Source: Isosphaera sp.
GTDB lineage: Bacteria > Planctomycetota > Planctomycetia > Gemmatales > Gemmataceae
DNA: 64,000 nt
Reading direction: 5' to 3'
Assembly: GCA_013822345.1 (NCBI GenBank)
Contig: PNKH01000016.1
Span: forward strand, 1-64,000
Shown: positions 32,898 to 60,544 of the stretch, piece by piece
How the letters are laid out: every line of letters starts with the position of its first letter
Position numbering within the stretch: position 1 is the first letter of the stretch
Made by a program: the position numbers and the translations under genes
The notes under the pieces: generated by a model
Databases searched by the model: none
Seen by the model: only the letters and a program-made list of their open reading frames with translations
What the model was told of the DNA's origin: nothing

Positions 32898-35264
32898 TCA
32901 CAACATGCTGAACGGGTCGACGTCGACCTGGAACTCGACCCCGTGCGGCGGCCGGGCCATCGCCAGCACGTCCCGCAGCACGTCGTGCAACACCGCGGTG
33001 TCCGCCGACTGCACCTGGAAGTGGAACCGGTAGAAGTTGTTCAGCCGGAACACCGGGCACTCGGCCGGTCCGAGAACGCGCACGGCCGGCCCGCCGGCGG
33101 CCCGCCTCGTCGCCTCGTGGAACGCCCCGGCCAGGGTGTCCGCGAACTTCGACGCCGCCTCCTCCTTCTCACTCCGCACGATCAAGCGCGCCATGCGGTG
33201 GAACGGCGGGTACTGGTGCTGCTTCCGGTGCGCCAGCTCCTGCCCGGCGAACCCGACGAAGTCGTGCTTCGACGCCAGCGTCACGCACGGGTGGTCGGGG
33301 GTGAACGTCTGGATCAGCACCTGCCCGCCCTTGTCCCCGCGGCCGGCCCGCCCGGCCACCTGCGCCAGCAGCTGGAACGTCCGCTCGGCGCTGCGGAAGT
33401 CCGGCAGGTGGAGCCCGACATCCGCGTTCACCACCCCCACCAGGGTGACGTTCGGGAAGTCCAGCCCCTTCGCGATCATCTGCGTCCCGACCAGCACGTG
33501 GACCAGGCCGTCGCGGAAGGCGTCGAGCACGCGGCGGTGGCTCCCGGGCTTCGACATCGTGTCCGAGTCCATCCGGGCGCAGACGTGCCCGGGGAACTTC
33601 TCCTCGACCTCGGCGTGCAGCTTCTCGGTGCCGAGGCCCTGGTACCGCATCGACGGCTGGGAGCAGCCGGGGCACGTCTGGAACGGGGCCGTCTCGAACC
33701 CGCAGAAGTGGCAGACGAGGGCCGCCTTCGCCCGGTGGAACGTCAGGGCGAGGTCGCAGTTCGCGCACTGGGCGACGTGCCCGCACGCCTGGCAGTGGAC
33801 GTGGGTGCTGAACCCGCGGCGGTTCAGCAGGAGGATCACCTGCCCCTTCGCCTTCAGGGTGGTCCGCATCGCCGCTTCGAGCGTCGCCCCGACCGCGAAG
33901 TGCTTGCCGCTCGGCTTCGGCTCGTGCCGCAGGTCGATCACCCTCACCCCCGGCAGCGGCCGGCTCTCGACCCGGCTCGGCATGCTCAGCAGGGTGTACG
34001 CCCCGCGGGCCGCGTTCGACCAGCTCTCCAGGCTCGGCGTCGCCGACCCCATCAGGATCGGAATGCCCTCCAGCCGGGCCCGCATCACCGCCACGTCCCG
34101 GGCGTGGTATCGCGGCGTCGCCTCCTGCTTGAAGCTGCTCTCGTGCTCCTCGTCGATCACGATCAGGCCGAGCTTCCGGGTCGGGGCGAAGACCGCGCTC
34201 CGCGCCCCGACGACGACCTGGACGTGCCCGGACGCGACCCGCCGCCAGTACCCGCCGCGCTCGGCGTCGGTCAGGTGGCTGTGCAGCACCGCGACAGTCC
34301 CGCACCGGCCCTCGAACCGCGAGATCGTTTGCGGGGTGAGCGAGATTTCCGGCACCAGGACGATCGCCTCGCGGCCCTGCTTCACCGTCTCCTCGATCGC
34401 CCGCAGGTACACCTCGGTCTTGCCGCTGCCGGTGACCCCGTGGAGCAGGAACGGCCGGAATCCGCCGGTCTGCAGGGCGGCGTGGACCTGGCCCCAGACG
34501 CGGACCTGATCCGCGTTCAGCTCGATGGCGAGCGGGGGACGTGAGTCCCCTGATCCTTCCGACACATCAGGGGGCTGACGCCCCCCGCTCGCCTCGGTCT
34601 CGACCCGCTCGCTGAACTTCCGCACCAACCCCTTCTTGACCAGCCCGCCGACGACGCCGGTCGTGCACTTCGCGAGGCGGGCGAGCTGCAGGATCTCGAG
34701 CGGCCGGCCCTCCTTCTTGAGCTTGTCGAGGGCGGCCTTCTGCTGCGGGGTGACGGAGGGGAGCGGGTTCGGGAGGTGGTCCTTCGGGACCGGCTCGACG
34801 AACGCGGCGACCCGGGTGCCGGCGTTCCCGCGGACCCCGGCCGGGACGACCGCGTGCAGCACCTGGCCCCACCCGCACAGGTAGTAGTCGGCCATCCACC
34901 GGGTGAGCGCCATCACGTGCCCGTCGACGAGCGCGTCGTCGTCGAGGACGCGGGCCAGCGGCTTCACCTCGAAGGCGGCGGACGGCGGCTCGTCGGTGAC
35001 GCGGACGCAGAACCCGGGGGTGGTCTTGTCGCCCTTGCCGAACGGCGCCTCGACTCGCTTCCCGACGCCGACCTTGCCGGCGAGGTCGGCGGGGACGGCG
35101 TAGGTGTACTCGGTGTCGAGGGGGCGGTCGAAGACGACGCTGGCGTACAGCCCGGACAGCGGACCCGGGGGCGGTGGGGGTTCCGGCTCGCGGCGCCGGC
35201 CGGTCGGGAACAGGGTGGTGCGGGCCGTCATGGCCGAGCGCTCCGCGGGCGTGGTAGTGGTCAT
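32898..35264 (-). CDS. priA: Primosomal helicase PriA with an in-frame repeat insert
   Basis: A 788-residue PriA, the 3'-5' helicase that restarts stalled replication forks. The 3'-binding domain (about 36-140) is followed by a winged helix (to about 222), Walker A GVTGSGKTE (276-284), DEEH (371-374) and eight zinc-binding Cys (491, 494, 500, 503, 518, 521, 531, 534). Residues 225-246 (ASGGRQPPDVS...PPLA) have no counterpart in PriA and are translated from the palindrome at 34527-34593, placed in the linker before the helicase. The frame is kept, so the protein is probably functional. The start is six bases after TAGACT. Confidence 0.94.
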   Translation of the reverse strand: MTTTTPAERSAMTARTTLFPTGRRREPEPPPPPGPLSGLYASVVFDRPLDTEYTYAVPADLAGKVGVGKRVEAPFGKGDKTTPGFCVRVTDEPPSAAFEVKPLARVLDDDALVDGHVMALTRWMADYYLCGWGQVLHAVVPAGVRGNAGTRVAAFVEPVPKDHLPNPLPSVTPQQKAALDKLKKEGRPLEILQLARLAKCTTGVVGGLVKKGLVRKFSERVETEASGGRQPPDVSEGSGDSRPPLAIELNADQVRVWGQVHAALQTGGFRPFLLHGVTGSGKTEVYLRAIEETVKQGREAIVLVPEISLTPQTISRFEGRCGTVAVLHSHLTDAERGGYWRRVASGHVQVVVGARSAVFAPTRKLGLIVIDEEHESSFKQEATPRYHARDVAVMRARLEGIPILMGSATPSLESWSNAARGAYTLLSMPSRVESRPLPGVRVIDLRHEPKPSGKHFAVGATLEAAMRTTLKAKGQVILLLNRRGFSTHVHCQACGHVAQCANCDLALTFHRAKAALVCHFCGFETAPFQTCPGCSQPSMRYQGLGTEKLHAEVEEKFPGHVCARMDSDTMSKPGSHRRVLDAFRDGLVHVLVGTQMIAKGLDFPNVTLVGVVNADVGLHLPDFRSAERTFQLLAQVAGRAGRGDKGGQVLIQTFTPDHPCVTLASKHDFVGFAGQELAHRKQHQYPPFHRMARLIVRSEKEEAASKFADTLAGAFHEATRRAAGGPAVRVLGPAECPVFRLNNFYRFHFQVQSADTAVLHDVLRDVLAMARPPHGVEFQVDVDPFSML
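34527..34593. repeat. Inverted repeat inside priA
   Basis: Left GGCGAGCGGGGGACGTGAGT continues CCCCTGA; right TCAGGGGGCTGACGCCCCCC continues GCTCGCC. The arms are about 27 bases with a few mismatches and a loop of about 12. On the minus strand it encodes an in-frame, Pro/Ser/Gly-rich segment of PriA. Confidence 0.92.
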
Positions 35265-42862: not shown

Positions 42863-43024
42863 AGCCCCGAAGGGGCGGGTGAGTGTAACCAGGGGTGGGG
42901 CGCAGCGCAACCCCTGGCGGGCGTCGGCGGGGTTGCACTCGGTCGGCCGCCGGGGTGACGTCCGCGCCGCCAGGGGTTGCGCTGCGCCCCACCCCTGGCT
43001 ACACTCGGTCGCCCCTCCGGGGCT
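42863..43024. repeat. Long inverted repeat between groES and groEL
   Basis: Left AGCCCCGAAGGGGCGGGTGA, then AACCAGGGGTGGGGCGCAGC; right CTGCGCCCCACCCCTGGCTA, then GTCGCCCCTCCGGGGCT. The arms are about 55 bases with mismatches, the longest in the window. It fills the whole groES-groEL gap except about 25 bases. Confidence 0.93.
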
Positions 43025-50644: not shown

Positions 50645-50712
50645 AACCCGTCCGAGCCCGAGCGCCAGCGAGGGACCACGTCGACCCTCGCTGGTGCTCG
50701 GGCTCGGACGGG
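50645..50712. repeat. Inverted repeat between convergent dinB-like gene and pckA
   Basis: ACCCGTCCGAGCCCGAGCGC continues CAGCGAGGG; right ACCCTCGCTGGTGCTCGGGC continues TCGGACGGGT. The arms are about 30 bases with one mismatch and a loop of about 8. It could terminate both genes. Confidence 0.93.
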
Positions 50713-50735
50713 TCGGCGCGGACCTGCAGCCCCGC

Positions 50736-56447: not shown

Positions 56448-56510
56448 GGCGAGCCGGGAGCGTGAGCGACCGGAGGACGCAACTCCGGTCGCTCACGCTC
56501 CCGGCTCGCC
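56448..56510. repeat. Inverted repeat (GGGAGCGTGAGCGACCGG family) within ABC cluster
   Basis: GGCGAGCCGGGAGCGTGAGC continues GACCGGA; the right arm is the perfect complement. The arms are 27 bases with a 9-base loop. It lies between the first ATPase gene and its permease. The core matches the repeat at 9756-9804. Confidence 0.95.
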
Positions 56511-59713: not shown

Positions 59714-60484
59714 ATGACCGCGTTCGCCGAGTTCGAGCGGGTGGTGCGCGGGCTGGCGCCGGCCGCGGCGGTGGTCCTCGGGTCCGGGCTGAGCCGGGCG
59801 GCGGCCGCGTTCCGGGAGGCCGCCGCGGTCGGGTTCGGGGAGGTGCCGGGCCTGGTCCCGCCGACCGTCCCGGGGCACGGCGGGCGGCTCGCGGTCGGGC
59901 ACTGGGGCGCAACCCCGGCGCTGGTGTTCTTCGGCCGGCTGCACTACTACGAAGGCCATTCTCCGGACGTGGTCGCCGGGCCGGCGCGGGCCGCCGCGGC
60001 GCTCGGGGCGAGGCGGTTCGTGCTGACGAACGCCGCCGGCGGCATCCACCCGAACCTCGCCCCGGGCGAGTTGATGGCGATCCGCGGGCACCTCAAGCTG
60101 ATCGGCCCCGACGCCTGGCGGTCGGCCGGGCGGGCGGTGCGGGAGCCGTACGCGGCCGCGCTGCTGGCGCGGATGCCGGAACTCCTCGCCGGGGTGTACG
60201 CGGCGCTGACCGGGCCGTGCTACGAAACGCCGGCGGAGATCCGGGCGGCGCGGGAGATGGGGGCGGACGCGGTCGGGATGTCGACCGCGCTGGAGGCGGA
60301 GGCGGCCGCCGGGTTGGGGCTCGAGGTGGCCGGGGTGTCGTGCGTGACGAACCGGGCGGCCGGGCTGGACCCGGCCCCGCTCGCCCACGCGGACGTGCTG
60401 GTGACGGCGCAGCGGGCCGCCGACCGGCTGGCGGCGGTGATCGGGCGATTGCTCGCGTCGGATTTGGCGAGCGTCGGGGCGTAA
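59714..60484 (+). CDS. Purine nucleoside phosphorylase (trimeric, PNP/MTAP family)
   Basis: A 256-residue phosphorylase for inosine/guanosine-type nucleosides. VVLGSGLSRA (19-28), GRLHYYEGHSPDVV (about 75-88), LTNAAGGIHPNLAPGELM (about 104-121; phosphate and base site), GPCYETPAEIRA (about 164-175; catalytic Glu/Tyr) and AVGMSTALEAEAA (about 184-196) are the family blocks. The C-terminal LASVGA is encoded by the 60467-60533 repeat. It is 149 bases downstream of the ABC cluster. Confidence 0.93.
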   Translation: MTAFAEFERVVRGLAPAAAVVLGSGLSRAAAAFREAAAVGFGEVPGLVPPTVPGHGGRLAVGHWGATPALVFFGRLHYYEGHSPDVVAGPARAAAALGARRFVLTNAAGGIHPNLAPGELMAIRGHLKLIGPDAWRSAGRAVREPYAAALLARMPELLAGVYAALTGPCYETPAEIRAAREMGADAVGMSTALEAEAAAGLGLEVAGVSCVTNRAAGLDPAPLAHADVLVTAQRAADRLAAVIGRLLASDLASVGA

Positions 60485-60533
60485 GCCCGACGTGGTTGGA
60501 ACCGCCACGTCGGGCTTACGCCCCGACGCTCGC
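60467..60533. repeat. Perfect 30-bp inverted repeat at PNP 3' end
   Basis: Left GGCGAGCGTCGGGGCGTAAG continues CCCGACGTGG. The right arm is the exact complement over 30 bases with a 7-base loop. The stop codon of the phosphorylase (60482-60484) lies inside the left arm. It is between convergent genes. Confidence 0.96.
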
Positions 60534-60544
60534 CGGGCCGCGGC

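Follow-up and report, generated by a model that had tools for sequence, protein, structure and literature searches.

The 67-bp palindrome that lies in frame inside the priA gene of this Isosphaera genome (G000 below) is very likely a REPIN insertion, that is, a pair of inverted REP hairpins from a family built of a GGCGAG head, an 8-bp stem and a GTNA loop. Such a family would spread as a non-autonomous element in a Gemmataceae-like genus, its copies being retained where they enter a flexible protein loop without breaking the frame, and the encoded peptide would act as a tolerated spacer. Positions in Table 1 are those of the window, the whole stretch of 64,000 nucleotides that was analysed.

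Table 1. Coordinates of priA and of the parts of the palindromic element within it
Feature	Position	Strand	Description
priA (replication restart helicase) CDS	32901..35264	minus	788 aa; stop codon 32898-32900
REPIN-like element, 67 bp	34527..34593		in frame; codes PriA residues 224-246
REP arm 1	34527..34554	+	GGCGAG head; 8-bp stem CGGGGGAC/GTCCCCTG, one G-T pair; loop GTGA; tail AT
Spacer between arms, 11 nt	34555..34565		
REP arm 2	34566..34593	-	GGCGAG head; 8-bp stem CGGGGGGC/GCCCCCTG, one G-T pair; loop GTCA; tail AT

The palindrome within PriA

The priA product carries the Pfam domains PriA 3'BD, DEAD, Zn ribbon and PriA_C and matches NCBIfam TIGR00595 above cut-off; PriA was matched in 58 of the 59 genomes searched (our own included, some matches being fragments only). 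The initial annotation had reported an inverted repeat at this place that keeps the reading frame and avoids stops, and both points are confirmed. Two inverted 28-nt arms flank the spacer, the palindrome folds as RNA with an energy of -54.1 kcal/mol (z -6.8; none of 200 shuffles was equally stable), and the inverted-repeat score of the linker is 19, with the best of 15 mononucleotide shuffles reaching at most 9. The encoded peptide, E224-A246 (EASGGRQPPDVSEGSGDSRPPLA), is free of stops within a single open frame.

Alignment with the solved PriA structure places the segment after the DNA-binding part and directly ahead of the helicase core. In an AlphaFold2 model built on 27 aligned PriA proteins the mean pLDDT is 80.7 and falls below 50 at residues 226-243, a drop that weak alignment of this variable part may also explain; the element is thus predicted to encode a disordered linker before the helicase core. 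The addition of about 22 residues, as originally proposed, stands only in part. The element does code for residues 224-246, but the linker between ..ERIE and LNADQ, counted by hand on the alignment, has 26 residues in G000 against 24 in G013, 23 in G010 and 20 in G005, and since these congeners have linkers of similar length with sequence unrelated to the G000 element, the net gain (26 versus 20-24 residues) is small. In this genus, then, the element constitutes the PriA linker without greatly lengthening it; shorter linkers occur beyond the genus, as in G028 with 17 residues.

A dispersed repeat family with in-frame copies

The element has 45 matches in its own genome at E <= 0.001, both strands counted, and matches in 14 of 19 genus genomes including its own. 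Eleven of these have at least 40 matches, G002 has seven, and G007 and G010 have one each; none was detected in G008, G013, G006, G012 and G017. Dispersed copies reach 90-91% identity, and two-arm copies number 17 in the G000 stretches (60-86 bp long) and 30 in the examined G014 stretches (65-76 bp). One further copy in the own genome (L112, C45:7022-7085), of 64 bp and with shorter G and C runs, has flanks in different frames, either from a broken gene or from a sequencing error.

The arm build is strikingly uniform outside the stem. Among 147 distinct GGCGAG-headed hairpins of arm geometry, 144 have a GTNA loop. They come from 1.61 Mb of DNA, with overlaps counted, and mostly from regions chosen for matching the priA element, so that the 128 hairpins with a CGGGG stem are a biased set. 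The other 19, with stems other than CGGGG.., all carry GTNA, and these were not searched for, save that one locus (L290) was chosen for its Y1 gene. Nine control heads of similar composition gave zero or one match each, two of the single matches being CGGGG-stem copies with an altered head. A head and loop that stay constant despite varying stems suggest recognition by a protein.

The in-frame census covered the match places listed for G000 and, from among the matches listed for the two relatives, 28 regions and PriA in G014 and 12 regions in G009; two rows that repeat others (L052 and L064, for L214 and L215) were counted once. Seven of the 17 two-arm copies in G000 are in frame, with a third-position G+C signal that keeps the frame across both flanks. 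Their hosts are PriA, an AcrB-type pump, a PSCyt/DUF1549-1553 protein, a CobW GTPase, a Ser/Thr kinase, where the copy sits between HRDLKPANVLV and ALRITDFG, and two open frames of 1004 and 805 aa, neither with a Pfam family. In G014 five of 30 are in frame: those in PriA and in MutL, where the copy separates the two C-terminal Pfam domains, and those in a polyketide-synthase-like protein, an SMC-like protein and a 526-aa frame with no Pfam family; G009 has none of 13 in its 12 regions, its one-armed PriA copy not being entered. In G015 a second kinase holds a copy at the same fold position (HRDLKPSNILL / KVSDFG), and in G018 a TrmE/MnmE-like protein holds one in frame. Of the 17 unique in-frame copies across all census genomes, 15 use the ASGG/GSGG frame (p 0.0012 on the assumption of two equally likely open frames, the copies not being independent of each other). 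Peptides similar to that of PriA, which the initial annotation had proposed to look for, are indeed present in other proteins (ASGGREPPD..QGAHAPRSP and ..SRPPLA), and its view that a dispersed family is tolerated in frame in an essential gene is supported. By inspection, the cytoplasmic loop of RND pumps holds other palindromes in G009, G016, G002 and G001, the one in G009 having the GGCGAG/GTNA build. In one of the loci from the other three genomes (L127 and L128 of G002 and G001, L123 of G016) a second repeat is nested in the palindrome.

That palindromic elements occur in frame in proteins is already established. Rickettsia palindromic elements (RPE) are described as in-frame palindromic repeats in unrelated protein genes (PMC10969869), and the coding copies of G000 are like them in this respect. 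The likeness is one of description, and the elements differ in size, about 67 bp here and about 150 bp for RPE, ours having a REP build. In-frame REP pairs are also reported from several species, many in genes of DNA replication and repair, and in recB the REPs of X. campestris and X. oryzae occupy roughly one site yet differ from each other (PMC3733652); the main text of that paper, additional files apart, has no mention of priA. Compared with the intragenic REP dimers described there, what we see is three families in one linker and copies that largely track the subfamily of their genome. Among the papers listed in our literature search, with most subscription journals outside its scope, none dealt with REPINs in proteins of planctomycetes.

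A candidate transposase

With two inverted short hairpins, a short spacer, dispersed copies and Y1 HUH genes in the genome, the family resembles the REPIN/REP-RAYT system (REPtron). It differs in its tag, which is GGCGAG with a GTNA loop here and GTAG or CGTC in the text of PMC3733652, in that no flanked Y1 gene was found in its own genome, and in having seven of its 17 two-arm copies in G000 in frame. The element would move as single-stranded hairpin DNA through a RAYT-like HUH Y1 transposase of class-3 type. Five Y1 transposase matches were detected in the own genome, none of them flanked by the REP of the element; the few matches of a loose scan there lack the GTNA build. When 33 loci with Y1 genes, these five included, were searched loosely for neighbouring [GC]CGAGC arms, there were some matches, none of them GTNA-built.

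The best candidate is a Y1 HUH gene in G009 (L290, coding 1501-2046), of class-3 type as judged by eye from its Y motif. It is bracketed by inverted GGCGAG/GTNA REP pairs: the left pair stops 24 nt short of the start codon, and the gene runs at its 3' end into the right pair, which provides its stop codon (GGCGAG/GTTA REP at 2039-2064). Among NCBIfam models the REP-associated tyrosine transposase matches it best, with an E of 2e-11 and 43.8 bits, below the cut-off of 80. The gene resembles TnpAY1 class 3, REPtron-like HUH Y1 genes whose flanks carry atypical hairpins and which are described principally from Planctomycetes (PMC6006769), an assignment made by eye rather than with the profile of that study. 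The hairpin foot given there is CnGA, as against the GGCGAG head beside L290.

Among 20 class-3-like loci L290 is the one with GGCGAG/GTNA flanks, the other nineteen having none; the loose flank scan has a background of 14 matches, real REPs among them, over 83.7 kb from unrelated loci; and the stems of the REPs beside L290 differ in sequence from the PriA arms. The enzymatic step is thus drawn from the shared build, and we hold with moderate confidence that a class-3 HUH Y1 enzyme acts on GGCGAG/GTNA REPs. Genomes rich in the repeat (at least 40 matches) have a strong class-3 relative (E below 1e-15) in nine of 11 cases versus two of eight of the others (one-sided Fisher p 0.02), an association that is weak since the cut-offs were set post hoc and kinship was uncorrected. 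G001 and G016 are repeat-rich with no strong class-3 relative, and G010 and G013 have such a relative with one and zero repeat matches. TnpA-REP recognition has been studied (PMC8266576), and the planctomycete class is said to need experimental work (PMC6006769). For this class we offer a testable recognition rule, namely a GGCGAG head, a GTNA loop and a free stem.

Other palindromes of the window have apparent counterparts beside Y1 genes. One at 50646-50713 (CGTCCGAGCCCGAGCGCCAGCGAGGG..) belongs, by eye, to the same family as palindromes directly beside the class-3-type Y1 genes L013 (own genome) and L280 (G009), each with a CCGAG-containing palindrome on one flank; the CGTCCGAGCCCGAGCGCCAGCGAGGG.. 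palindromes and these genes are a possible second REP-transposase pair. A large palindrome at 42863-43024 is like one beside another own-genome Y1 gene (L009), whose Y---Q--HH motif corresponds to subclass 1.2 as described in PMC6006769.

History of the PriA linker

Had all planctomycete PriA proteins carried the segment, the initial annotation would have been refuted; comparison among relatives shows that they do not. By inspection of 30 aligned PriA proteins, the element is found only in G000, G014 and G009, with a full palindrome in G000 and G014, one clean and one decayed arm in G009, and identical junction positions in all three; G005 has none. In a PriA tree calculated without the linker, these four form one clade (100/99) within which G009 and G005 are sisters (98/96). 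A palindrome scan scored the linkers of 72 of 74 PriA, two (L040 and L136) lacking the searched motif. The set consists of 30 PriA loci and 44 of 80 further loci picked by title as planctomycete-like, so some planctomycete loci are omitted, and two rows (L134 and L027) are probably one genome. Four of the 72 lie above shuffles, from G000, G014, G006 and the locus L137; the G009 copy, with one arm missing, gives no score. G000 and G014 share the GGCGAG/GTNA family, G006 has a GGGGACAG palindrome, and L137 has an inverted pair of GTAG REPs, a pattern with 51 matches in its genome versus one for the reversed control. Thus three different palindromes occupy the same PriA linker, and the element is not ancestral to planctomycetes. 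The palindrome of G006 (L028) is also in frame and is made of GGGGACAG/CTGACCCC units. Two linkers that start with EASG were considered as decayed copies and are not claimed: in G002 the left arm reached a score of 27, short of the highest null value of 29 (p 0.007, with 21 linkers tested), and in G018 p was 0.67.

The initial annotation took the priA copy as direct evidence that a family inserts into an essential gene and so behaves like a mobile element. Mobility is indeed favored by the dispersal of the family, its presence and absence on the tree and the different subfamilies at one site, and from these we infer that the priA element has very probably moved in the past. The evidence is indirect, as a clean empty site was sought in PriA and RND pump orthologues and none was found, because the orthologues are too diverged; no target duplication, of the kind expected of a MITE, and no excision product was seen for the element.

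The typing of arms adds a second layer to this history. The base pair next to the loop varies by species, as a pair: it is G-C in 34 of 35 G000 arms (window excluded) and A-T in 46 of 52 G014 and 13 of 14 G009 arms. The tail is CGG in 50 of 52 sampled G014 arms and TGA in all 35 G000 and 12 of 14 G009 arms. The PriA copy of G014 has the A-T pair and the CGG tail in both arms, with one other mismatch. That of G000 is mixed, arm 2 having the G-C pair of its own genome and arm 1 the A-T pair common in G009 and G014. At fourfold sites of priA, identity is 51-69% among G000, G014, G009 and G005 and 48-64% among more distant congeners, the former exceeding the latter only for G000-G014 (69%). The PriA copies thus largely match the subfamily of their own genome despite far-diverged synonymous sites, which suggests that they were homogenised or re-inserted. 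A run of 21 nt in the 3' arm (GAC TCA CGT CCC CCG CTC GCC) is identical in the priA of G000, G014 and G009 and is a suggestive sign of the same, the arm typing appearing to be the stronger one. Long identical runs occur elsewhere in priA (among 209 eight-codon windows that encode equal amino acids, three show no nucleotide difference), so the 21-nt identity alone is not decisive. Copies in CobW, apparently at the same place by eye, differ in stem or loop among G000, G005 and G003.

The simplest history would be a single entry into the priA linker before G000, G014, G009 and G005 split, with later loss in G005 and half-loss in G009; the palindromes of G000 and G014 would have been kept or renewed by homogenisation with, or re-insertion from, their own REPIN populations. 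It is possible, if rather doubtful, that the linker is instead a hot spot and that G000, G014 and G009 each took their own REPIN, a history nested within the REPIN interpretation. Copies largely of the type of their own genome in a gene far diverged at fourfold sites, the absence of the element in G005 as sister to G009 (98/96), the other families in the linkers of G006 and L137 and the different palindromes in the RND loop of several species would all fit it. The same junction positions in the three species speak against it, and the mixed arms of G000 and the single clean arm of G009 resemble the partial renewal of an old element. Spread by template switching in replication followed by repair, with no transposase, is unlikely. 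No flanked transposase was found in the own genome, element length varies and no fixed target duplication was recognised, all as such a process would have it, but a constant head and loop on varying stems point to protein recognition, and G009 has the REP-bracketed Y1 gene.

Selection for the palindrome itself, as an mRNA or DNA hairpin or for its peptide, could account for the very stable fold and the near-perfect pairing in G000 and G014; it is improbable given that most relatives have no palindrome, that G009 has half lost it and G005 lacks it, and that the same element sits in unrelated proteins. An ordinary ancestral PriA linker that is palindromic by chance in G+C-rich DNA is hardly credible. 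The similar length of the unrelated linkers of congeners would be expected of it, but shuffles never reached the observed score, dispersed copies are up to 90-91% identical and 68 of the 72 scanned linkers have no palindrome above shuffle level; we rejected it on the dispersal in the own genome and genus and on the linker scan.

A REPIN insertion as preferred here offers a multi-species example of mobile palindromes that supply linkers inside an essential protein, with coding copies that appear to follow the repeat subfamily of the genome while the surrounding gene diverges. What looks new is the GGCGAG/GTNA tag, the tentative link to an enzyme, the repeated use of one essential linker and the subfamily-typed coding copies. 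More speculatively, and as a proposal about which we are somewhat more doubtful than confident, the family may represent a third REP superfamily (GGCGAG head, GTNA loop and free 8-bp stem), moved by planctomycete class-3 HUH Y1 transposases; it and other palindromes would repeatedly enter the same essential-protein loops (PriA, CobW, the kinase catalytic loop and the RND pump), the copies there later being homogenised with the genomic population. If true, homogenisation of the copies would tie the evolution of protein linkers to that of a mobile element.

Elsewhere in the window, two palindromes that start with GGCGAG, at 56448-56510 and 60466-60534, have GTGA and GTAA loops on imperfect stems and are perhaps relatives with the same REP build.
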